From positions 1-21,693 of IMG/VR virus record IMGVR_UViG_3300037231_000065: a stretch of 21,693 nucleotides of DNA. One strand, 5' to 3'. The stretch's first letter is position 1; the number at the start of each line of letters is the position of its first letter. Shown one piece after another: positions 4,698 to 18,819 of the stretch. Position numbers and translations under genes: made by a program. Below the pieces are notes generated by a model. That model did not search any database. It saw only the letters and a list, made by a program, of their open reading frames with translations, and was not told where the DNA came from. The stretch comes from a virus.

Positions 4698-5162
4698 TCA
4701 GGCGACTCCCGCCAGCGAGCGCACGATCTGGCGCGCCAGACGATCAGTGAGAAAGCCTTCGCCCCAATCTTCGAGTTGGCCCTCGTAGATCTGGGTGATC
4801 GCCCGCGCCTTGAGCCGGGCCGTCTCGGCGGTCGGCGGAAGCGCCTCGACCTCGCGGAGAAATACCTTTTCGCGCTCGCTCCAGTCCGACCACTCCTTCG
4901 CGGTGACGTCGTCCCGAGCGTTCAGGGACGCCGTCAGGGTGCGAAGGGCGGTCGCCTCGTGGTTGAGGCGGCTCAAGTGGGACGGCGGTGCGGCGGCAAC
5001 GGCTGGGATGGCCAGGGCGCCGAAGCCGATCGCACCTGCCGCGATGCCGCGGCGTGTGACGCCCTTGCGGATCTGCGCCCTCGCCTCTTCCCGAGAGGAC
5101 GCGGTGATGACGCCTGCAAAAGGCGTGTCGAAAGTGGTAGGGGTAGAGCTAGCTTGGGCCAT
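4698..5162 (-). CDS. Hypothetical protein with Tat-like or TM segment
   Basis: A 154-residue protein that I do not recognise. A polar N-terminus with an Arg/Ala-rich helix (SSREEARAQIRKGVTRRG) precedes a hydrophobic stretch at about 40-58 (IAAGAIGFGALAIPAVAAA). The twin Arg at 37-38 makes it look like an internal Tat-type signal or a single membrane anchor. The remaining 95 residues are helical and charged (AKEWSDWSEREKVFLREVEA). The ATG at 5162 is chosen because it has GAGGAG upstream and avoids overlap with the divergent gene at 5251; a longer frame from 5300 is rejected. It is the gene just before the C4-like RNA and may share its transcript. Confidence 0.7.
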   Translation of the reverse strand: MAQASSTPTTFDTPFAGVITASSREEARAQIRKGVTRRGIAAGAIGFGALAIPAVAAAPPSHLSRLNHEATALRTLTASLNARDDVTAKEWSDWSEREKVFLREVEALPPTAETARLKARAITQIYEGQLEDWGEGFLTDRLARQIVRSLAGVA

Positions 5163-5760: not shown

Positions 5761-6294
5761 ATGCTGAAGACCGCCGCGGCCGTGGCCGCCGTATCGCTCA
5801 TAGCCGGGTCGGCATGGGCAACCGCCTACACCGACACGATCGACGTCGACACCTCGTCGCTGACCGTCACGTACAACGCCCACGATGTGCTCACGCGGAT
5901 CGCGGGAACGCTCGACCTGGGCCAGATCTATGATCTCGCGCCAGGAGATAGCCTGATCGTCATTGCCGATCTGTCGTCGGCGATCCCTACGCCTGTTCAG
6001 CCGGTAGAGACCCAGGTTGTAACGGCGACTTCATATGGAACAGGTGACATCACCACCACAAGTCAACTGTGGCAATACGGGTACGGGACTGGTGAACCCT
6101 TCACACAGGTCGGATCGATCAGTCTGACGTTCGATTATGACGCTCCGGTCGGCTCACCCGACTACACCGTCGCCGAGATCCAGAGTATCAGCCTGACCCC
6201 CAACGTCCCCGAGCCCGCGACCTGGGCCCTCATGCTCGTCGGCTTCGGCGCCATGGGTGCAGCCCTGCGGCGCAGGCGCGCGATCCCCGCCTAG
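5761..6294 (+). CDS. PEP-CTERM (PEPxxWA) sorting-domain surface protein
   Basis: A 177-residue exported protein. A Sec signal peptide covers residues 1-21 (MLKTAAAVAAVSLIAGSAWA). The mature part is a Thr/Asp/Ser-rich, beta-type domain. The C-terminus has the sorting signal: VPEPATWA (149-156), a hydrophobic segment LMLVGFGAMGAAL, and the basic tail RRRR (170-173). PEP-CTERM proteins are processed by a host exosortase and end up at the envelope or in exopolysaccharide. The ATG has a strong Shine-Dalgarno (GGAGGGG). It reads against the phage genes, and its stop overlaps the fibre gene's stop (CTAG at 6291-6294). It is probably cargo acquired from a host chromosome. Confidence 0.88.
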   Translation: MLKTAAAVAAVSLIAGSAWATAYTDTIDVDTSSLTVTYNAHDVLTRIAGTLDLGQIYDLAPGDSLIVIADLSSAIPTPVQPVETQVVTATSYGTGDITTTSQLWQYGYGTGEPFTQVGSISLTFDYDAPVGSPDYTVAEIQSISLTPNVPEPATWALMLVGFGAMGAALRRRRAIPA

Positions 6295-7724
6295 GGGTTC
6301 ACGTCGTTCCCGAGGCGGGCCCCATTGCAGCGGGAGCCGCCGTCCCATGTCGTCAGCGTGCTGCCGTCATAGAGGTCGATGACGTGATTGTAGGTCGGCG
6401 TCAGGCCGGGACCGGCATCGCCGCCGCCTCCGTTCAGCGTGCACGCATAGGCCCCATTCGGGTCGATGAAGACATAGTTCCCCGTGACCGAGACGAAGTA
6501 TCCGTAGCTGATTTCCCACCCAGCCGCCGACACGGTGGCGTAGTATTGGCCGGCGATCAGCGTGCCCTGGTTCGCCGACTGGTAGATGGCATTGGTGATC
6601 AGGTACGTATAGTCAATCTCTGCCGTGATTTGAGGATATTCGTTGCCCGACGAAAAGTACACGAGCGCCGTTGAATTGCCACCGGACGCACACGTATCCG
6701 GACATCCCGTATCTACGTCGCTAACTTGCTCGGTGTCCGGGTATAGGATCGTGTCAAATTTCAATAGCAACTTTATCGCCAGCCCGGCGTGCGCAGTCCC
6801 TGATGGCACGTTTGGAAGATCGATTTCACCGTGTATGCCGGAGTCCTGGACATCGAGGTTTACACCCTCGATGTAATCATACTCTGACGTTATGCTGGCG
6901 GCAGATGTGTTCCACACACGCCCCTGGTTGTTGAGGTAGACGTTATAGTAACTGTTGACCTGCACAGCGCCCGATGCGACGTAGGTATCGCTATCCGAGA
7001 TGGCGCCGATCATTGACCCGGTCAGGCAGTTGGTACAGCCCGGAGGATTGCCGTTGAAGCTGTTGTTCCAATAGTTCTCGACGGTGATGGTTGTCGGCGA
7101 CACCACCTTGATGAACCATCCGTTGGCAAATCCGACGCCGGCCGGGCCCTGGCACGGCGAGACGCCGCTTGGACCATAGGCGCCGAAGATGTTGTCTTGA
7201 ATGGTCAGCGTTCCCGAGGCCGTCCCGCCAATTTCAATGCCGATGCAGGTCGTGCCACCGTCCGTGAAATCCCAACCGGCGATGCTGGGACTAGCCCCGT
7301 TGCACCGAATGTACGGCGCCCCTGGCGCCGTAGCTCCAGCCGAACTGACGCCGCTCCCCCCGGCCGAATTATAACTGCAACCGGACGGGTGATTGGCCGA
7401 TGTCACCCAGGGGTGAAAGAAGTTGCCGGGCCCAATGCGGTAGGTCGCCCCCGCCTGGTTCCAAAGGAGCGCAAGCGTGGGAAGAATGCTGCGGTGCGTC
7501 AGGCCGTTGACCGACTGCGTCGCGTAGAGCGCGAAGTTCGGACGGATGAAGGTCGGCTCGGTGTTGCCCAGCGTGTATTGCTTGCGTCCCGCGCAGCCGT
7601 CGTTGTCCAGGCCCCAGGTAATCGGGCATGGATCGATCAAGCTGGGGACGCCGCGCACGGGCCGGGCGTGGGCGCCAACAGCGATCGTGAGCGCCATGAG
7701 GGCGAGGAGGGCGGCCTTCAGCAT
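6291..7724 (-). CDS. Secreted beta-helix-like tailspike/surface protein
   Basis: A 477-residue protein with a clear Sec signal peptide (MLKAALLALMALTIAVGAHA). The body is rich in Gly, Asn, Tyr, Thr and Ser with short repeating beta-strand patterns, for example GTLTIQDNIFGAYG, VVSPTTITVENYWNNSFNG and VYLNNQGRVWNTSAAS. This suggests a right-handed beta-helix of the pectate-lyase/tailspike kind. At least ten Cys, some in pairs such as CTNC, fit an exported protein. No catalytic motif is identifiable. The start overlaps the upstream gene by 7 bp. The middle (about 6440-7010) has visibly lower GC than its neighbours, suggesting a different origin. Confidence 0.75.
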   Translation of the reverse strand: MLKAALLALMALTIAVGAHARPVRGVPSLIDPCPITWGLDNDGCAGRKQYTLGNTEPTFIRPNFALYATQSVNGLTHRSILPTLALLWNQAGATYRIGPGNFFHPWVTSANHPSGCSYNSAGGSGVSSAGATAPGAPYIRCNGASPSIAGWDFTDGGTTCIGIEIGGTASGTLTIQDNIFGAYGPSGVSPCQGPAGVGFANGWFIKVVSPTTITVENYWNNSFNGNPPGCTNCLTGSMIGAISDSDTYVASGAVQVNSYYNVYLNNQGRVWNTSAASITSEYDYIEGVNLDVQDSGIHGEIDLPNVPSGTAHAGLAIKLLLKFDTILYPDTEQVSDVDTGCPDTCASGGNSTALVYFSSGNEYPQITAEIDYTYLITNAIYQSANQGTLIAGQYYATVSAAGWEISYGYFVSVTGNYVFIDPNGAYACTLNGGGGDAGPGLTPTYNHVIDLYDGSTLTTWDGGSRCNGARLGNDVNP

Positions 7725-8470
7725 GGGCCGACGCCCATGATGCCCAGGGTGCAGACGCCGCCCCCACCGCCCCCGCCACTGCCAGCTGGAGAGAAGGTGA
7801 CGTAGTTGACCCCCCAGACGTCGCTGGCGCTCAGGGTGGCTGCGTAGCTGGCTGAGGCGGCCGCCGTCTGGAGCTGATAACTGAGGGTCGCGAGCGGGGC
7901 GGAGCCATCGTTCTTGGTGTAGAGGTTGGTGAAGCCGGCGCTCTCGGTGAAGGTCGCCGAGAGGTTGTCGTTGCTCAACACGAGCACGAGCTCGCCGGCA
8001 TAGTTGGGCGTCGCGACGCTGATCGCGGGGGACGTGCTCGTGCCGGTGGCGCCAGATCCCTTCAGGTCGACGGCGCCGGCCCCAGAGAACGTGATCGCGA
8101 AGGCGAAGAGGGCCGCGCTGCTGTTCGAATAGGTGCAGGTGATCGTCGTCCCGCTCGGCGTGCCGGCGGTCGATGTCGTCCAGTAACCGGCGACTTCGTG
8201 GCCGGTCCCGTCGTAGACCGAAAGGGCCGTCGCGTAGGTCCCGTTGACTGGGTCCGTGCAGCCGGTCGGCGCCCGCGAGGCGTTGGAGCTGGAGCCGACG
8301 AAGATGGCATTGCCGGCGGGAACGGCTGCGGTCGTGGTGATCAAAACCTGCGAGGAGCTGCCGCTTGGCAGGACCGCCCACCCGATCGGCGTCGGCGTGC
8401 TGATCGCCGCCGCAACCGGCGATACGGCCAGCGCCAGCGCGGCTGCGGCGCAGAGAAGGGTCCTGCGCAT
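7718..8470 (-). CDS. Secreted fibre-like beta-sandwich protein
   Basis: A 250-residue protein starting with a Sec signal peptide (MRRTLLCAAAALALAVSPVA). The mature region is Ser/Thr/Ala-rich beta-sandwich-like sequence (QVLITTTAAVPAGNAIFVGS, PNYAGELVLVLSNDN). It ends in a run of seven Gly and a Cys-flanked tail, CTLGIMGVGPC. The pattern resembles modules seen in phage tail-fibre and accessory proteins, but I cannot assign a family. Its ATG overlaps the preceding stop by one base (TGATG), so it belongs to the fibre operon. Confidence 0.7.
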   Translation of the reverse strand: MRRTLLCAAAALALAVSPVAAAISTPTPIGWAVLPSGSSSQVLITTTAAVPAGNAIFVGSSSNASRAPTGCTDPVNGTYATALSVYDGTGHEVAGYWTTSTAGTPSGTTITCTYSNSSAALFAFAITFSGAGAVDLKGSGATGTSTSPAISVATPNYAGELVLVLSNDNLSATFTESAGFTNLYTKNDGSAPLATLSYQLQTAAASASYAATLSASDVWGVNYVTFSPAGSGGGGGGGVCTLGIMGVGPC

Positions 8471-9342
8471 CAGAAGTCCAGGAAGCCCTGGACGTTGCAG
8501 CCGAAGACACCGCCGCCGCTGGGCGCCGCGGAGGGCGTTGCGGTGAGAGCCGTATTGATCGCCGTCCCCACCAAGGGCACGACGAACGTCGGATTGTTAC
8601 CGCTCCCGGTCGGGACGATGATGACCGTTGAGGCGGTGTCGTTCAGGGCGATCGTGAGCGTGGCCGTGCCGGTGTTCCAGCACTGCGCCGAGACGACGCG
8701 GTGCTTATAGAGGGTGCTGGCCGCCAGAAGCGTGATGGCGCTGGATGTCGAGCCGCTCGCCGAACCGGTTTCCTGCGTGGCGCCAACCGCATAGGGGGTG
8801 ACGACCAGGCGGCCGGCCGACGTGCATTGCAGGACGACCTTCTCGCCGTCGGTCACCGTGACAGTGATCGGAAGCGTTGTCGCCCGACAGCCATCGGCAA
8901 GCGGGTTTTCGGTAATCGAAGCGCCCTGGGCGGTAATGCCCTCGATGCCGCCGATGTTGATGCCGTGGCTGGTCTGCGCCGGAAGGGCGGACTGCGCCGC
9001 CAAGTAGATGGCCCAATCCAGGGCGCAGAGGCTCGGCACGCCGGTGCCCGGATAGGGCGTCGTGGTCGCGCAGTCGCCGACATCGGGTGAGAAGCCGGCT
9101 GCGTAGGTGTTTTCAGCGGCAGTGACCGCCCCGCCGCCCCCACCCCCACCGGCGCCACAGTTGCCGCCGGTCTTGAAGTTGCACAGCGTCCCGTCGGTGT
9201 TCTCGATCACCACGGGCGCTGGGTCGACACGCTGTCCGCCGGACGTCGTCGGGCCGCCGGGCAGTTGCGTCTGGGCGCAGACCGAGACAGCGCAGAACAG
9301 GGCCGCAGCGCTCAGCGCTGCGGCCGAAAGGCGTCGGATCAT
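8470..9342 (-). CDS. Secreted fibre-like protein with poly-Gly hinge
   Basis: A 290-residue protein with a Sec signal peptide (MIRRLSAAALSAAALFCAVS, cleavage near VCA-Q). A Cys-containing N-terminal part (TDGTLCNFKTGGNCGAG) leads to a run of seven Gly, followed by a long Thr/Ser/Ala beta-rich region (STLYKHRVVSAQCWNTGTAT). The C-terminus ends FGCNVQGFLDF. It looks like a virion-type beta protein with a flexible hinge, not an enzyme. The ATG has GAGGGA upstream and lies 28 bp after the preceding stop. Confidence 0.7.
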   Translation of the reverse strand: MIRRLSAAALSAAALFCAVSVCAQTQLPGGPTTSGGQRVDPAPVVIENTDGTLCNFKTGGNCGAGGGGGGGAVTAAENTYAAGFSPDVGDCATTTPYPGTGVPSLCALDWAIYLAAQSALPAQTSHGINIGGIEGITAQGASITENPLADGCRATTLPITVTVTDGEKVVLQCTSAGRLVVTPYAVGATQETGSASGSTSSAITLLAASTLYKHRVVSAQCWNTGTATLTIALNDTASTVIIVPTGSGNNPTFVVPLVGTAINTALTATPSAAPSGGGVFGCNVQGFLDF

Positions 9343-9370
9343 GAAAATCCCTCAATTCGGGGGTAAAGCG

Positions 9371-9760
9371 TCAGCAGCCAGAAGTGATCAACACGCTGAC
9401 CTGGACCGTCACCGTCGAGCCTGCGGCGTCGGTCACTAGGTCCTGCCATGTCCCATCCACGTTGGGACAGATGCCGCCGCTGTAGGCCCAGGCGGTGCTG
9501 GCCCCGGTCGGGCTGGTCGCGGTCGTATCGGTGCTGCTGCCAGACACCAGCGACCATGCGTGTGTGTATCCGCCCGCGCCGCCCTGCGGTGTCGTGGTGA
9601 CCGCTCCGGTGCTGCAGGAATGGCCGCTCGTACCGGTGCTGCAGAACGCGGACAGGGGGGAGACCGTAGCGGTGAGCGGGTCGCCCGGAACCGTCCAGGC
9701 CCCGGGAACCGCCGCCGCCGGACCCGCCAGCAGAGCCAGGGCAAGGGCGAGCCACTTCAT
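9371..9760 (-). CDS. Secreted Ig-like domain protein
   Basis: A 129-residue protein with a Sec signal peptide (MKWLALALALLAGPAAAVPG) and a single Ig/PKD-like beta domain. Visible elements are DPLTATVSPLSAFC, GGYTHAWSLVSGSS, TSPTGASTAWAYSGG and a C-terminal strand VTVQVSVLITSGC. The GYTHAWSLVSG motif is typical of Ig-like modules in phage tail proteins. The ATG at 9760 overlaps the upstream stop (ATGA), which excludes a longer frame starting at 9826. It may be an accessory adhesion domain for the fibre complex. Confidence 0.75.
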   Translation of the reverse strand: MKWLALALALLAGPAAAVPGAWTVPGDPLTATVSPLSAFCSTGTSGHSCSTGAVTTTPQGGAGGYTHAWSLVSGSSTDTTATSPTGASTAWAYSGGICPNVDGTWQDLVTDAAGSTVTVQVSVLITSGC

Positions 9761-11103
9761 GATAGACCGGGCCCCGTGATGATCCAGCGGGTCACCGAGA
9801 CCTTCGTGGCGGTCGCCTCGCCGCACGCCGCCAGGGTGCGCGACCCGGTCGACCCGCCCGGAAACATGACCAGTGTGTCTGACGTGATCGCGATCGTCAG
9901 CGTCCCAGCCGCGCAGTCGTTGACGAAGTCGATCTTGGTTCCGACGCTGAAGGCCACTGTGGCATTGGCTGGGATCGTCCAGGTTCGAGCCGTGGTGTCG
10001 CTCGAGGGATGATAGACTTGGCCGCCAGCGTCGCTCAGCGCCAGGGTGTAGGCGGCCGACTGGCTGTTCTGCATCGGGCCGTAGAAGCGCGAGTCATCGC
10101 CCGCCGCGACAGTCCCTGACGTGGTCCCGATATTCGATGGAGTCAGATAGTCCGTCCCCACGACGGCGATCCCGAGCGTGTTCGCTCCGGTTCGCTTGAT
10201 GATGCCGGTCGAGCCCAGGCCGGTGATTGTGTCCTGGCTGATCGATCCGCCGAGACTCACCGAGGTCCCGGCGACCGTCACTGCGCTGTTGGCCAGGTCG
10301 GAGTTTGGGATGCCTGAGGGGAGATCGGCGACGACCAGGCTGCGGAAGGTCGGCGCGGAGGCCGAGCCGCTGCTTGGGCCGGTGAACACCGTATTGGCGC
10401 TCTGCGTGGCCAGGGTCTCGGCCAAGGTCCCTGCGCCGGTCACTGGAGAGCCGGCGACGTTGAAGATCGCCGGCGCCGACAGGCCGACGCTGGTGACGGT
10501 GCCCCCACCACTGCTGGAGCCGTTCGACGCCGTGGTCACCCGGCCATCGGCGCCGACGGTGATGTTGGCGTTGGTGTAGCTGCCGCCCGTGACACCGGAT
10601 GCGGCGACCGCGATCGCACCGCCGGTGATGCTGATGCCACTTCCGGCGGTGTAGGAGCCGCCGCTCGACCCGTTCGCGGCGGACGTCAGGCGCCCATAGG
10701 CGTCCACGGTGATGTTGGCGTTGGTGTAGGCGCCCGCGGTGACGGCGGTGGCCGCCAGAGCGACCGCGTTGCCAGACAGACTGATCCCCGACCCGGCGGT
10801 GTAGATAGGCGCGCAGGGCGCCCCGAAGTCGCTGAGCTTGGGCCCGGCGATCCATTCGGCGCAGTTGCCTGTCGCCGGGGTTCCGGAGACCAGTTGACCT
10901 TGCGTGAAGGTGCTGGCTTGGCAGAGGCTGACCCACTGCAGGGTCGTGCTGTCCTGCGGCTGGTCAGGGATGTAGTCGCTGCACGCCGGGCTGGGGTTTT
11001 GTGCCAGATCCGGCAGTGAGATGCTGGTCTGAGCCTGAGCGGCCGCACATGAGACGGCCAGCAGCGCGGCGATCGCCAGCGCGCCGGTGAGGCAGCGGAT
11101 CAT
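9757..11103 (-). CDS. Tail fibre-like protein with signal peptide
   Basis: A 448-residue protein beginning with a Sec signal peptide (MIRCLTGALAIAALLAVSCA, likely cut after AQAQA-Q, about residue 24). A short Cys-rich domain follows, then two tandem 50-residue repeats with YTNANITV and DGR/YGR turns. The remainder is fibre-type beta sequence (TFRSLVVADLPSGIPNSDLA, GTVAAGDDSRFYG). These repeats and the FRSLVVADLP element are hallmarks of phage tail-fibre shafts. The ATG has GGAG six bases upstream. Carrying both a signal peptide and virion-fibre repeats is the notable feature. It leads the five-gene secreted block. Confidence 0.82.
   Translation of the reverse strand: MIRCLTGALAIAALLAVSCAAAQAQTSISLPDLAQNPSPACSDYIPDQPQDSTTLQWVSLCQASTFTQGQLVSGTPATGNCAEWIAGPKLSDFGAPCAPIYTAGSGISLSGNAVALAATAVTAGAYTNANITVDAYGRLTSAANGSSGGSYTAGSGISITGGAIAVAASGVTGGSYTNANITVGADGRVTTASNGSSSGGGTVTSVGLSAPAIFNVAGSPVTGAGTLAETLATQSANTVFTGPSSGSASAPTFRSLVVADLPSGIPNSDLANSAVTVAGTSVSLGGSISQDTITGLGSTGIIKRTGANTLGIAVVGTDYLTPSNIGTTSGTVAAGDDSRFYGPMQNSQSAAYTLALSDAGGQVYHPSSDTTARTWTIPANATVAFSVGTKIDFVNDCAAGTLTIAITSDTLVMFPGGSTGSRTLAACGEATATKVSVTRWIITGPGLS
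10504..10803 (-). repeat. Tandem 150-bp (50-aa) fibre repeat, two copies
   Basis: Two adjacent 50-codon units inside the fibre gene, at 10654-10803 and 10504-10653. Both begin YTAGSGIS and contain GGSYTNANITV or GAYTNANITV, then GR(L/V)T and NGSS. They have diverged moderately. Such units form trimeric shaft segments and expand or contract by recombination. Confidence 0.85.
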
Positions 11104-11159
11104 GCTGTGCTCCGGGGTTGAGATCGGCGCTGTAAGCGCGCCGGTGAGGCGGCGGATCA
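11078..11159. repeat. 25-bp direct repeat flanking a signal-peptide start
   Basis: Copies at 11078-11102 and 11135-11159 match at 24 of 25 positions, offset by 57 bp. The left copy encodes the start of the signal peptide (ATGATCCGC on the minus strand). The right copy reads cTGATCCGC and supplies the TGA stop of the upstream fibre gene. This is a relic of a local duplication at a gene junction. Confidence 0.85.
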
Positions 11160-13872: not shown

Positions 13873-14223
13873 TCAGAGCGACACCGACACAGAGGTCTCG
13901 CCGTAGATTGTCATGATGGTGGCGTTGACGGCCCACGCACGGCCGGCGCTGAATGAACTGGAATAGGAGACGATCGACGAGACGCCCTGAGTTCCGAGAA
14001 TGCAGGCTCTGGCCGCCTGATCGGCGCTGTACTTCCCCCCTTCCACGAACACCTCCGTCGACCACGGCATTCCAGCTGTCGTATCGAGGAACCATTCGCC
14101 CTGAAGCAGCTTCAGGCGGGTTATGACGGCTTGGCCTACCGCTGCAGGCGAGTTCACGAGGTAGTTCGCGGAACCCTGGCCGAAGGTGAAGTCGCCCGTG
14201 GGCGAGAGAGCGCGGTATCGCAT
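13873..14223 (-). CDS. gp25-like baseplate wedge protein
   Basis: A 116-residue protein starting MRYRALSPTGDFTFGQGSAN with VGQAVITRLKLLQGEWFLDT, GMPW and a C-terminal strand VNATIMTIYGETSVSV. Size, the RLKLLQGEWFLD core and its place immediately before baseplate J identify it as the gp25/gpW-type wedge protein. It forms the inner baseplate ring and nucleates sheath assembly. The ATG has a strong Shine-Dalgarno (GGGGGAG). Confidence 0.82.
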   Translation of the reverse strand: MRYRALSPTGDFTFGQGSANYLVNSPAAVGQAVITRLKLLQGEWFLDTTAGMPWSTEVFVEGGKYSADQAARACILGTQGVSSIVSYSSSFSAGRAWAVNATIMTIYGETSVSVSL

Positions 14224-14242
14224 CGGCGCTCCCCCTATTCGG

Positions 14243-14653
14243 TCAAATCGAACAGAAAGGCGCCACGGAAGGAAAGTTGATCGTGATGCCCGGAAATTTG
14301 GCTGAGGCGACTTCCTCGGCCAGCGCAGTCAAGGCCGCGATCTGAGTGATGATGCTTGCGAGTTGCGCCGTCAGCTGGATCTGCGGGGCGTAGTACGGTC
14401 CCAGAAATCCAGTGATGAAGTTGCTGACCCAGGTGATGACTTCGGCCGGGTTCAGCGGGGCCGTGAGGAGGGCCTCTATTGGAGCGAGATATGCTAGCTG
14501 GCTCTCGATCGTGCTGTTCAGGGGCGCGATATCTGCAAAAGCAGTGCTTATGATCTGCTGAAGTTCTTCGGCCGTTCCTGCGCCGCTGATGGACGCCTGG
14601 ACGTTCAGAAACCACTGCAGGTTGAGATTGGGAAAGCAACTCGGCATTCCCAT
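14243..14653 (-). CDS. Hypothetical baseplate-region protein
   Basis: A 136-residue, strongly helical protein that I do not recognise, starting MGMPSCFPNLNLQWFLNVQA. Leu/Ala/Ile-rich helices follow (EELQQIISTAFADIAPLNST, LTAQLASIITQIAALTALAE), ending FPSVAPFCSI. The start overlaps the spike gene's stop by one base (TAATG), so it is certainly co-translated. Position between spike and wedge suggests a structural or chaperone role in the central baseplate. Cys near both ends may be coincidental. A competing frame at 14235-14639 reads as shadow sequence. Confidence 0.75.
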   Translation of the reverse strand: MGMPSCFPNLNLQWFLNVQASISGAGTAEELQQIISTAFADIAPLNSTIESQLAYLAPIEALLTAPLNPAEVITWVSNFITGFLGPYYAPQIQLTAQLASIITQIAALTALAEEVASAKFPGITINFPSVAPFCSI

Positions 14654-15336
14654 TAGCCTATCCCCGATGCGATGTTGGTTATGATGCCATTCTGAACCGT
14701 TACGGTCTGCCCCGTCGGCGTCGTAAGGGTCCCGGTCGCTCCCGAGCCGGCTACGATATTTCCTTCTACCGAGAGGTTGCCGGTGATGGTGACGTTGGCC
14801 GTGATCGTCGAGCCGCCCGGCGCGGTGATGTCTACTGTCTTGGCGGTCGGGTTGAGGTCGATGACCGTTGAGCCGTCGTCGCTGCGGAGCTGCGCCGAGA
14901 CGGTCGAGATGTCCGAGATCACCCGGGGTTGAGAGCGGAAGCCCAGCAGGACGAAGCCGTCCGACAGGTCGTGCATCCTGGCTTCGACCGGAGGCTGTAC
15001 ACCCCCGGACTGCCACCAGCCGTCGATCGCGCGCGAGGCGAAGACAACAAGGCACTCATCCCCTTCCTCGACCGGGAATGTCAGCGTCACCCCTCCCCCG
15101 CTTGGGAACTGGCAGGGGCAGTTGAGGCAGAGCGGGAGCGTCACCAGGGCGACCGAGGTGTTCGGATACGGGAAGGTCCGCTTGGCCTGGATCGTCGTCT
15201 GCACGACGCAGGTCATCGCCGCGGCGTTGAAGCTCTCGATGACGCCCGGCAGGGCCGTCCACATCTTCGCCTGGCGGCCATCGAGGGCTGTGCGGATGGC
15301 CTCTTCGAACTCGCCGGCGCGTTCCCTGCGGTCCAT
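14653..15336 (-). CDS. Baseplate spike protein (Gp138 N-terminal OB domain)
   Basis: A 227-residue tail spike of the gpV/Gp138 type, the membrane-piercing needle. Residues about 25-135 form the OB-fold domain: MWTALPGVIESFNAAAMTCV, GGVTLTFPVEEGDECLVVFA, SRAIDGWWQSGGVQPPVEAR and HDLSDGFVLLGFRSQP. The C-terminal part is short-strand beta-prism or helix sequence (TITANVTITGNLSVEGNIVA, TVTVQNGIITNI). Three Cys lie close together at about 70, 73 and 75 (LCLNCPC), which is unusual and could bind a metal. The ATG abuts the hub gene's stop. Confidence 0.88.
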   Translation of the reverse strand: MDRRERAGEFEEAIRTALDGRQAKMWTALPGVIESFNAAAMTCVVQTTIQAKRTFPYPNTSVALVTLPLCLNCPCQFPSGGGVTLTFPVEEGDECLVVFASRAIDGWWQSGGVQPPVEARMHDLSDGFVLLGFRSQPRVISDISTVSAQLRSDDGSTVIDLNPTAKTVDITAPGGSTITANVTITGNLSVEGNIVAGSGATGTLTTPTGQTVTVQNGIITNIASGIG

Positions 15337-16260
15337 TCAGCCGTATCCCCGCGAGACCAGGCCCGGGGTCGCGCCCTGCCCTACAGCGATGCAGATCAGG
15401 TCCGAGTACCACTCCTGGCCCCGGGTATCTCCGGAGTGCTCGCAGACGACCACCTTGTAGACGCCATCGTCCGTGATCGACGGGAGGAACGAGTTCTGAT
15501 TGGCGCCCGAGACGCCCAGGTTTAGTTGCGCCTGCTGGATGTCTGCGTTGTTGATCTGCACCTGTCCGCCCACCTTGATCTGTGGATTAAGAAGGCAGCG
15601 GACCTGAATGCCCTCTTCGGTCTGTTCAGGAAATCCAATCATGCCGGTGGCGGAGTTCAGCACGACGGCCGTTCCCGGGAGCGAGCCGGTCAGCGGAACC
15701 AGCTGGAGAACCCCGTTCTGGATCGACCACGTCATGTCCGAGGCGAAGGCGAGGTCGCGGAGATGATCCCGCGCCATGCCGAACATGGTCTTGCCCCTGG
15801 GGAGCACCCCCGAGGGAAGCGGGCCCACATAGCCCAGGGTCACACCCGAGCCACCCATGGCCTGTATCAGGGCGTTGATGCGGTCCGAGAAGGAACTTCC
15901 CGCGGCCAGGGCCGTATTGACGACCGCGAAGTTGAGCGCCTCGTCGCCGTCAGCGCCCGAGATGTCGACGTAGGTGTCGACCGGGCTTTCGCGCCCCTTG
16001 CGGGCCTGGACCAGCGTTCCGGCGAAGATCGTTCCGAGGTCGCCGTCTTGATAGCCGCACTGAAGGATGACCTGGCTGAACTGCTTCTGGATCTTGTTCG
16101 CCGTCTGGTCTGAGACGTTGTAGACCCTGATCTGGCAGGTATTTGGGGTCTGCAGGTCCCATTGCTTGATGCTGAACTTGAAGTGCAGACTTGACAGATC
16201 GAGGCCGGTTGCCCGATCCGCCACCACCAACGAGGCGGCGCGAAGGAATTGCTGGCCCAT
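15337..16260 (-). CDS. Baseplate hub protein (gp27/gpD-like)
   Basis: A 307-residue protein beginning MGQQFLRAASLVVADRATGL, with FKFSIKQWDLQTPNTCQIRV, QVILQCGYQDGDLGTIFAGT and SDRINALIQAMGGSGVTLGY. The C-terminal part (GFPEQTEEGIQVRCLLNPQI, YKVVVCEHSGDTRGQEWYSD) fits hub proteins that form the trimeric platform for the spike. Order plug-hub-spike is as expected. The ATG at 16260 overlaps the plug gene's stop by one base, and a longer frame starting at 16473 is excluded by that overlap. Confidence 0.85.
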   Translation of the reverse strand: MGQQFLRAASLVVADRATGLDLSSLHFKFSIKQWDLQTPNTCQIRVYNVSDQTANKIQKQFSQVILQCGYQDGDLGTIFAGTLVQARKGRESPVDTYVDISGADGDEALNFAVVNTALAAGSSFSDRINALIQAMGGSGVTLGYVGPLPSGVLPRGKTMFGMARDHLRDLAFASDMTWSIQNGVLQLVPLTGSLPGTAVVLNSATGMIGFPEQTEEGIQVRCLLNPQIKVGGQVQINNADIQQAQLNLGVSGANQNSFLPSITDDGVYKVVVCEHSGDTRGQEWYSDLICIAVGQGATPGLVSRGYG

Positions 16261-16577
16261 CAGTCGGCAACCCAATAGAGGTTGCAGTCGGTACCGAGGT
16301 TGGTGAAGGTCGGTGTCGCGTCCGGGTTTTGCACTGTCTGGACGTAGAGCGATCCTCCGAAGCCGAGATACCCGTACTGCGCCAGCAGATCGGCCCCCGT
16401 GACCATGGGCAGCCCCCGGATGATCGGGTTGTTGTTGGCGTCGCCGATGTCCAGGAACCATCCCGGGTTGCACGGCGCGTTCCGCCAGGCCAGCGTGAAG
16501 GTGTAGGTCGTTCCCCCCAGCGTGATGCCGAAGGTCTCCGGGACGCCGGCCAGGGGGATCAGGTAGGGCGTGCTCAT
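16260..16577 (-). CDS. Baseplate plug protein (DUF6983-like)
   Basis: A 105-residue protein with IPLAGVPETFGITLGGTTYT, a WFLDIGDANNNPIIRGLPMV core, LLAQYGYLGFGGSLYV and the C-terminal LGTDCNLYWV. This is the pattern of the small phage baseplate plug family found between the Dit-like protein and the hub in this tail type. It would sit on the tail axis under the tube. ATGA overlap with the upstream gene. Confidence 0.82.
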   Translation of the reverse strand: MSTPYLIPLAGVPETFGITLGGTTYTFTLAWRNAPCNPGWFLDIGDANNNPIIRGLPMVTGADLLAQYGYLGFGGSLYVQTVQNPDATPTFTNLGTDCNLYWVAD

Positions 16578-17113
16578 GTCGTCTGCACCGCCCAGCTAGG
16601 CACGGTCGTCGTCACCGCCTGCGGCTGCTTGGTCCCGCTTTGGGCCTGTGACTGGGTATCTGCGGGGCTCGTCTGGTCGCTGGCGGGAGCAGAGACGGCC
16701 ACGACGGACGTCGAGACGATGATGATCTGTTTGCATATCACGACCAGGGCGAGCGACGTTTCGGTCTTCTCGTCCGTCGTCAATTCCACACTGGTCGCCA
16801 GCATGCTCGTGTAGAGACGCTTGCCGGTCTGTATCGAGAACGTCGTCCGGCTCTGCTGGAGCGCCATGACCTGATTGTAGATGTTGGTGACGTAGCCCTC
16901 GTCGCCCCCTGCCGCGGCGCTGGAGTTGCTGGCCCCGAAGCGGATCGTGGCTTCGGCCGGCTCCTGGTAGGCGTGATCGGTGATCTGCGCGCCCTGCTCC
17001 ACAGGATGCGACGTGATGGTCTGGCGGTCGATTCCCCGCTCTTCGAAAGTGACCAGAGCGGTGATCGAGCCGAAATAGCGGCCCGGGCTGATCGTGATCG
17101 TTTCCTGGGCCAT
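16574..17113 (-). CDS. Dit-like baseplate protein
   Basis: A 179-residue protein. The N-terminal 130 residues match Dit-like phage baseplate proteins: GSITALVTFEERGIDRQTIT, HPVEQGAQITDHAYQEPAEA, QVMALQQSRTTFSIQTGKRL and TTDEKTETSLALVVICKQII. The C-terminal 45 residues are Ser/Thr/Gln/Pro-rich and look unstructured. Dit proteins join the tail tube to the baseplate hub. The ATG overlaps the tape-measure stop by one base. Confidence 0.85.
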   Translation of the reverse strand: MAQETITISPGRYFGSITALVTFEERGIDRQTITSHPVEQGAQITDHAYQEPAEATIRFGASNSSAAAGGDEGYVTNIYNQVMALQQSRTTFSIQTGKRLYTSMLATSVELTTDEKTETSLALVVICKQIIIVSTSVVAVSAPASDQTSPADTQSQAQSGTKQPQAVTTTVPSWAVQTT

Positions 17114-18819
17114 CAGGCCACCGCGGTCTTGAGGTTCCGCACCAGGTTGCCGTTCACGCGCTCCAGGCTCGCGGTCACGACGCGGCCAGCCGCCACGGGG
17201 TCATGGACGCCGCTGATGTGGATGTCGGTCTTCTGGTTGACCCCGACGCCGCCATGGGCGCCCGCGCTCGCCAGCGGGGCTGAGCCGATGACGCCACCGG
17301 ACTCCACTCCCGCCATGAGCGACATCAGCCGCTGCAGCGTCGCGGGGTCGGTGGAGAATTGCGCGTCGGCCGAGATGCCCAGACCTTTGGCGAGCCGGTC
17401 GACGTAGGCCGAAGCCGAGGCGTGGCTGTTGCCGGGCGCCCACTCGCTCGACCATCCATGCTTGGGATCGTCGATCAGCGAGCGGATGGTGCGCTGGCCA
17501 TGGGTCCAGTAGTCCCGCAGGATCTGGGCCTGCATCGCAGTGTAGCCCTCGGCCATGGTGTCGAAGTGGCGGAACTTGCCGTCCGATCCGACCAGATTGC
17601 CGGGATTGTTGTTGCGCACCGACACCGGCTGGTTTCCGCGGATCGGGTCGTGGCCAGCAGCCGAGCCCTCCGGGTTGGCCCCCGGCGCACCGAGACCGCC
17701 TTGCGCGGCCGCGCCGGGGATCTCGATGCTCGGGACCGGCTCGTTGGGGTGGAAAAGCCTGTGAGCAGCCTTGTAGACCGCCAGGATCACGTTCCAGAGA
17801 CCGCCGACCATGTCCTTGATCGTGTCGATGAATGAACCGAACGTTCCCTTCGCCGCGGTCCAGGCCGCGCCCCATTTGCCGGTCAGCAGGTCGGCGACGG
17901 TGGTCAGCAGGCCGCCGATGATGTGCAGGGCGTCGGCGAGGAGCTTCAGGGTCTGCGAGGCCAGCGCCCCGAGCACGGGACCGGCGACGCGCGAGACGAC
18001 TTGCGCGATCGTCTTGAGCGCGGAGACGACCGGCTCGGCCGCGGCGGCGATGTTCGTCAGCTCCCGGCCGAGACCCTGGTCCTTGATGCTCTCGAACCAT
18101 ACAGGGATGCGCGAGAGCCAGTCCACGAAGCCCTGAAGCATTGGCATCAGCTGGGTGGCGCCGGCCGTGAACAGCAGGCCGAACTCGGCCTTGAGGTCGC
18201 GAACCTTCTCGGCGAACTTGTTCGAGGCGTCCGCCCCGGCGTCCATGCCGAGGCCAAGCCGTTGGGCGAACTCGCGGTACTTGTCCGCCCCGGCGCCGGG
18301 GCCTTGGATCAGGGCCAGCAGGGTCTTCTCGTCGATGCCGAGCATCGCCGCGCGGACCTTGGCCATGTAGAACGGCATCTTCGCGAACTGCTTGCCGAGA
18401 TCCTCGGCGATCAGCTCGGTGTCGCGCAGCTTGCCGTTGGCATCGCGCGTAGCGACGCCGAGGCCCTGGATGAAGCGCTCCCCTCCAGGGTTGCTCCGCA
18501 TGAACGAGGCGATGCCTTCTAGGGCCGACTGGGCGCCCTTGGCGTCGCCGCCCAACTGCTCGATGGAGAAGCCGAACGCCTTGACGTTCTCGGCGGCGGA
18601 GTTGACCCGGCGGGAGGTGAAGTAGAGTTGATCCAGGTCCTGGACCATCTGAACGACGGCTTTGGCGACCTTCTCGGCCGCCTTCTCGATCACTTCGCCC
18701 AGGGCGACTGCTGCGGCGGTGACGCCCGTGATGCCCTTCTGCATCTGGGCCTGCCCCTTGGCGTCAAGCTTGAAGCCGAGGGCGACCAAAAATTCCTTGA
18801 TGATCGAGGCATCGCTCAT
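17113..18819 (-). CDS. Tail tape measure protein with muralytic domain
   Basis: A 568-residue tape measure. The N-terminal part is helical (KEFLVALGFKLDAKGQAQMQ onward), and hydrophobic segments lie around 270-345. From about residue 399 there is a lysozyme-like P5-type domain: VSVRNNNPGNLVGSDGKFRH, EGYTAMQAQILRDYW, TIRSLIDDPKHGW and AYVDRLAKGLG. A typical tape-measure tail with RNGNLVRNLKTAV-like ending follows. The muralytic domain probably helps the tube cross peptidoglycan on infection. At 568 residues it is short, implying a tail of at most about 85 nm by the usual length rule. The ATG overlaps the stop of the frameshifted chaperone (ATGA). Confidence 0.9.
   Translation of the reverse strand: MSDASIIKEFLVALGFKLDAKGQAQMQKGITGVTAAAVALGEVIEKAAEKVAKAVVQMVQDLDQLYFTSRRVNSAAENVKAFGFSIEQLGGDAKGAQSALEGIASFMRSNPGGERFIQGLGVATRDANGKLRDTELIAEDLGKQFAKMPFYMAKVRAAMLGIDEKTLLALIQGPGAGADKYREFAQRLGLGMDAGADASNKFAEKVRDLKAEFGLLFTAGATQLMPMLQGFVDWLSRIPVWFESIKDQGLGRELTNIAAAAEPVVSALKTIAQVVSRVAGPVLGALASQTLKLLADALHIIGGLLTTVADLLTGKWGAAWTAAKGTFGSFIDTIKDMVGGLWNVILAVYKAAHRLFHPNEPVPSIEIPGAAAQGGLGAPGANPEGSAAGHDPIRGNQPVSVRNNNPGNLVGSDGKFRHFDTMAEGYTAMQAQILRDYWTHGQRTIRSLIDDPKHGWSSEWAPGNSHASASAYVDRLAKGLGISADAQFSTDPATLQRLMSLMAGVESGGVIGSAPLASAGAHGGVGVNQKTDIHISGVHDPVAAGRVVTASLERVNGNLVRNLKTAVA

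Follow-up and report, generated by a model that had tools for sequence, protein, structure and literature searches.

Tailed phages are known to encode some proteins with export signals. The lambda Lom gene lies between the tail-spike and tail-fiber genes (PMC12309495), and exported endolysins of tailed phages have been described (PMC6116005). The five proteins reported here share an export signal with Lom and with the Sec-exported and SAR endolysins, but Lom is an outer-membrane barrel and the endolysins are lysis enzymes, and none of these is a fiber module. We found no description of Sec-exported tail-fiber cassettes in the open-access full-text literature.

Two cultured phages encode a large tail protein that carries a signal peptide (SP) just downstream of the J and fiber genes. 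Burkholderia phage BgManors32 gp48, annotated as “tail protein,” starts MKKIVFTLTAAFALLFSFVPRVAVA/QFVPGQVL, is spike-like, and matches tail-fiber and appendage PHROGs. Shewanella phage vB_Sb_QDWS has an SP-bearing, spike-like open reading frame (ORF) of 687 aa with a pectate-lyase-like beta-helix match below the Pfam cutoff. Both resemble our five proteins in this placement, but each is a single gene rather than part of a five-gene cassette, and no homology to our proteins was detected. At the position of the vB_Sb_QDWS spike ORF (L318:3447-5510), the record annotates an ORF on the reverse strand plus a shorter gene; the start of the full-length ORF was apparently overlooked. The same match was obtained from OK094664.1 (L318) and OP650936.1, both 47,902 b long, with Shewanella baltica and a Tenericutes bacterium given as the respective hosts; these are probably one genome, with one host label doubtful.

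The window analyzed here is the whole 21,693-nt stretch of IMGVR_UViG_3300037231_000065. Its PHROG matches are those of a tailed contractile phage and cover the sheath, the tape measure, the baseplate hub and wedge, an antirepressor, and an endolysin. Between tape measure and tail fiber, the gene order is similar to that in Burkholderia phages Magia and BgManors32. A search with the window J protein as the sole query found no relatives. Five consecutive SP genes (SP1 to SP5, encoding P1 to P5) lie on the minus strand, co-directional with the structural genes. An earlier sequence-only reading had placed them next to baseplate and fiber genes with starts at 11103, 9760, 9342, 8470, and 7724. Both points were correct, and the other side of the block is flanked by the antirepressor and endolysin genes. 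Its claim of translational coupling holds for three of the four junctions, because P1/P2, P3/P4, and P4/P5 overlap (by 4, 1, and 7 nt), while P2 and P3 are separated by a gap of 28 nt. Consensus scans of the minus strand found no promoter-like site in the block region (sigma-70 consensus only) and no terminator-like site between the block genes.

The gene that ends 53 nt before the P1 start, P0006 (11157..12014, minus strand), encodes an ordinary tail fiber (PHROG 11303, “tail fiber protein,” E 6e-32) that is negative by our SP rule. Its residues 4 to 91 form a known N-terminal tail-fiber module, and its position equals that of the fiber genes in Magia and BgManors32. A 25-nt near-copy (96%) of the coding start of the P1 signal peptide lies over the stop of this fiber gene (direct repeat D6, minus strand, copies at 11078-11102 and 11135..11159, the upstream copy offset by 57 nt). 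The repeat is probably a recombination scar, and it looks as if modules had been swapped at the signal peptide. On the far side of the block, a plus-strand gene with an SP-like start (5761-6294) encodes a PEPxxWA-CTERM protein (NCBIfam NF035944, 2e-13). It stands tail to tail with the P5 gene, and an exosortase-type sorting signal is carried here inside a phage. A small minus-strand ORF (4701-5162) has TRRGIAAGAIGFGALAIPAVAAAP near its start, which is Tat-signal-like by eye, and gave no NCBIfam match.

Signal peptides were called with a home-made heuristic that looks for a charged n-region, a hydrophobic core, and a small-X-small cleavage site. As the sequence-only reading had proposed, all five N termini have the features expected of a Sec-type signal (a positive n-region, a hydrophobic core, and a small-X-small site), with scores of 5.3 to 6.2 by a rule that was written with these N termini in view. 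The only other window ORF to score at least 5 was the PEP-CTERM gene (5.0), and the tail sheath reached 4.3. Since the rule was tuned on the window, the comparative evidence weighs more than these scores. The first version overlooked the signal peptides of L147 and BgManors32 gp48, and the rule was widened.

P1 (448 aa; 9757..11103, minus strand; SP score 5.9) consists of a signal peptide, a cysteine-containing N-terminal part, a shaft, and a C-terminal phage-appendage domain (residues ~346 to 448) with a cysteine pair at about residues 397 and 427. Shaft repeats had been claimed for at least one of the genes, and the P1 shaft indeed holds two 147-nt repeats (direct repeat D1, 10508-10804). 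P1 also carries a weak lipobox-like AVSC, which makes a lipoprotein possible. P2 (129 aa; 9371..9760, minus strand; score 5.3) is a signal peptide followed by a short domain with a mature start of VPGAWT and an Ig-like pattern by eye, and it has a homologue in a similar block of another phage. P3 (290 aa; 8470..9342, minus strand; score 6.1) has 8 cysteines in its mature part. P4 (250 aa; 7718..8470, minus strand; score 6.2) is beta-rich by eye and ends in CTLGIMGVGPC, and P5 (477 aa; 6291..7724, minus strand; score 5.9) has 12 mature-part cysteines. In Pfam and PHROG scans, P3 and P4 had no family match, P5 had no significant one, and a known N-terminal virion anchor of the kind found in P0006 was not seen in any of the five. 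Searches found no homologues of P2 to P5 in the phage collection and none of P3 or P5 in the viral contigs.

The C-terminal domain of P1, its last 103 residues, also occurs at the C terminus of other phage proteins, SP-less fiber ends included. It follows repetitive low-complexity sequence in XLZ15559 (Limnohabitans phage YIMV22061) and UOF77653 (Manatee Spring podovirus MW202483), which, unlike P1, lack both a signal peptide and the cysteine pair of the domain. Among 385 alphaproteobacterial genomes there was one match to this domain, again with neither feature. The sequence-only reading had suggested structure prediction for the set, which succeeded in part: the P1 domain was modeled at a mean pLDDT of 91, while the P5 model (pLDDT 31) was discarded as unusable. 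The best fold match of the P1 domain was the Pa223 capsid spike (Z 12.4, rmsd 2.1, 95 aligned), followed by a KP1-variant baseplate protein (Z 12.1), the N-terminal part of CBA120 TSP4 (10.4), T4 gp9 (9.6), and T4 gp10 (8.8). The model thus points to the fold of virion spike and connector domains, a likeness that proves no function. The Pa223 spike, TSP4, gp9, and gp10 share this fold with P1 but are themselves ordinary virion parts with no known export. All five proteins had been described as fiber-like. By homology and predicted fold this applies to P1, and P2 to P5 have no such support.

A survey of related phages for the same block, which the sequence-only reading had put forward, did find it elsewhere. 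L227, a diverged contig of a Mu-like phage, carries five SP genes arranged in the order seen in the window. The first (8993-10312) is similar to P1 (5e-54), and the second (10309-10914) matches P2 at E 2e-5 over the first 26 residues, mostly signal peptide. The third (13938-15254) is the counterpart of P3 by position only, with no significant sequence match. The fourth (15256-16011) matches P4 (BLASTP, 2e-8) and was again the sole match in a P4 profile scan. The fifth (16005-17831) matches the C-terminal 119 residues of P5 weakly (E 0.001 for a single comparison), and it was unmatched among plasmids. The end of the fourth gene contains the start codon of the fifth in L227 and in the window alike. 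SP-less genes separate SP2 from SP3 in L227, and its SP1-SP2 pair sits between the Baseplate_J (PF04865) and Phage_Mu_Gp48 (PF10076) genes, i.e., inside the baseplate operon. In a further contig, L229, the corresponding region holds five SP genes, of which the first scored 4.4 by the wider rule and was accepted partly by eye; its second SP gene matches P2 (phmmer, 3e-5).

The SP1-SP2 pair alone is present in L228, L231, and L264. In L228 it has head genes on one side and other structural genes on the other; in L264 it follows portal and tail-like genes (ORFs read by eye). The mature N terminus of L228 SP1 resembles the extreme N terminus of an SP-less L202 ORF (E 8e-7), and L228 SP2 carries Pfam Gly_rich_2. 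A survey centered on J found large SP-bearing proteins downstream of it in L013 and its near-copies, L014, L026, L072, L074, L083, and L084; the L084 protein is beta-helix tailspike-like (Pfam pectate-lyase-like, 2e-10). In L083 (13748-16203), two SP-like genes with a 4-nt overlap follow J and a fiber-like gene, an arrangement resembling SP1-SP2. The bare count of signal peptides was only mildly enriched downstream of J: by the wider rule, 17 of 222 proteins of at least 180 aa were SP-like, versus 10 of 288 upstream, near-copies included. Around J in prophages of cultured bacteria, 4 of 190 downstream proteins of at least 180 aa were SP-like, none of them fiber-looking by eye.

The products had also been noted to contain cysteine. 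Their mature parts hold 6, 4, 8, 4, and 12 cysteines, all even numbers, and cysteine makes up 2.29% of the SP proteins against 1.01% of 18 other window genes (p 0.005), which fits an oxidizing compartment. For the P1 C-terminal domain, two viral-contig scans gave 80 loci each, which together with the window left 126 distinct domains. At least two cysteines were present in 7/7 SP-bearing proteins versus 1/109 SP-less closed ORFs (Fisher 1.7e-10, with kinship ignored). Two choices made by hand favor this association: the L231 start was re-chosen after the rule had failed on a mis-extended ORF, and a rule match in L191 was set aside as an internal start. The pair NDC...CG occurs in six proteins (P1 of the window, L147, L148, L178, L228, and L231), all six with a signal peptide, and L155 has a signal peptide with a different cysteine pair. 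In the tree, the six grouped together (99/88 support) apart from L155, which requires two or more changes of the SP label. The SP carriers fall into two distinct lineages with a different cysteine pair in each, and the exported versions of the domain have gained paired cysteines.

The matching five-gene block in a distant phage and the gain of cysteines with the signal peptide strongly support the proposed export: P1 to P5 very probably do not stay in the cytoplasm, contrary to what textbook tail assembly would predict. We are confident, on these comparisons, that P1 to P5 would leave through Sec, lose their signal peptides, and form disulfides in the periplasm. The N termini could instead be chance hydrophobic starts, or belong to ordinary fibers that stay in the cytoplasm. 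The rule is a heuristic that also gave weak or false matches (the tail sheath and the internal start in L191), but chance would have to account for five consecutive SP genes, their recurrence at the same position in other phages, and the association of the signal with cysteine pairs gained twice, and we regard this as highly improbable. The best explanation is that the five genes form, within the late structural region, a cassette for Sec-exported phage proteins, P1 at least being a fiber protein. A Sec signal alone brings a protein of a diderm host to the periplasm only. In keeping with this, the secreted or surface-displayed fiber complex of the sequence-only reading survives as export, and nothing indicates surface display.

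What the exported proteins would do is a more tentative matter. In the explanation that we rank first, the late virion attachment that the sequence-only reading had listed among its options, they would be expressed late, held in the periplasm until lysis mixes it with the cytoplasm, and then attached to newly released tails as extra receptor- or glycan-binding modules, acting beside the ordinary cytoplasm-assembled fiber P0006. This is suggested by the position of the genes in virion gene clusters and by the fiber-type N-terminal module in L228. Tailed-phage virions assemble in the cytoplasm, so attachment would need lysis, which counts against it, as do the SP-less fiber that the window, L227, and BgManors32 each encode as well and the failure of the Pfam and PHROG scans to show a virion anchor in P1 to P5. 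T4 tail fibers can be joined to fiberless particles in vitro, which makes attachment at a late stage physically feasible. We put the whole chain, from completion of virion parts in the periplasm to their attachment at lysis, at somewhat less than an even chance. The proteins may never become virion parts at all. Released by lysis or secreted, they could bind receptors or cut surface glycans, masking receptors on debris and sibling cells or clearing exopolysaccharide as spike-like depolymerases. The tailspike-like beta-helices of the L084 and vB_Sb_QDWS proteins (the latter match below cutoff), the fiber and appendage matches of BgManors32 gp48, the glycine-rich L228 SP2, and the SP-less fiber already present in the phages examined are all consistent with free proteins, and the PEPxxWA-CTERM neighbor suggests that the host is diderm and has an export system of the exosortase type. 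However, SP genes inside baseplate and head-tail clusters and the module kept in L228 point to virion ancestry, and a decoy with the specificity of P0006 would have to share a domain with it, whereas none was recognized between the C-terminal half of P0006 and P1 to P5, the shaft motif alone being similar. Such free proteins are possible, and in our view only slightly less likely than late attachment. The cassette could also encode adhesins that serve the surface of a lysogen rather than the lytic cycle, since the antirepressor gene fits a temperate phage and the exported PEP-CTERM gene adjoins the block. This is unlikely, as the block is co-directional and mostly overlapping, lies among structural genes in other phages, and has no minus-strand promoter-like site in its region by the sigma-70 consensus.

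Late attachment, still our first choice, would amount to a two-compartment virion assembly, a dedicated route in which some tail fibers mature in the periplasm with disulfides and are loaded at lysis; we put this forward as a conjecture that may well be wrong. Textbooks have tailed-phage virions assembled wholly in the cytoplasm. A recurrent cassette of exported, cysteine-paired fibers would mean that there is another compartment for virion assembly or, alternatively, a group of free proteins that bind receptors and are set free together with the virions. Either would matter for adsorption and superinfection, and either is testable in cultured phages.
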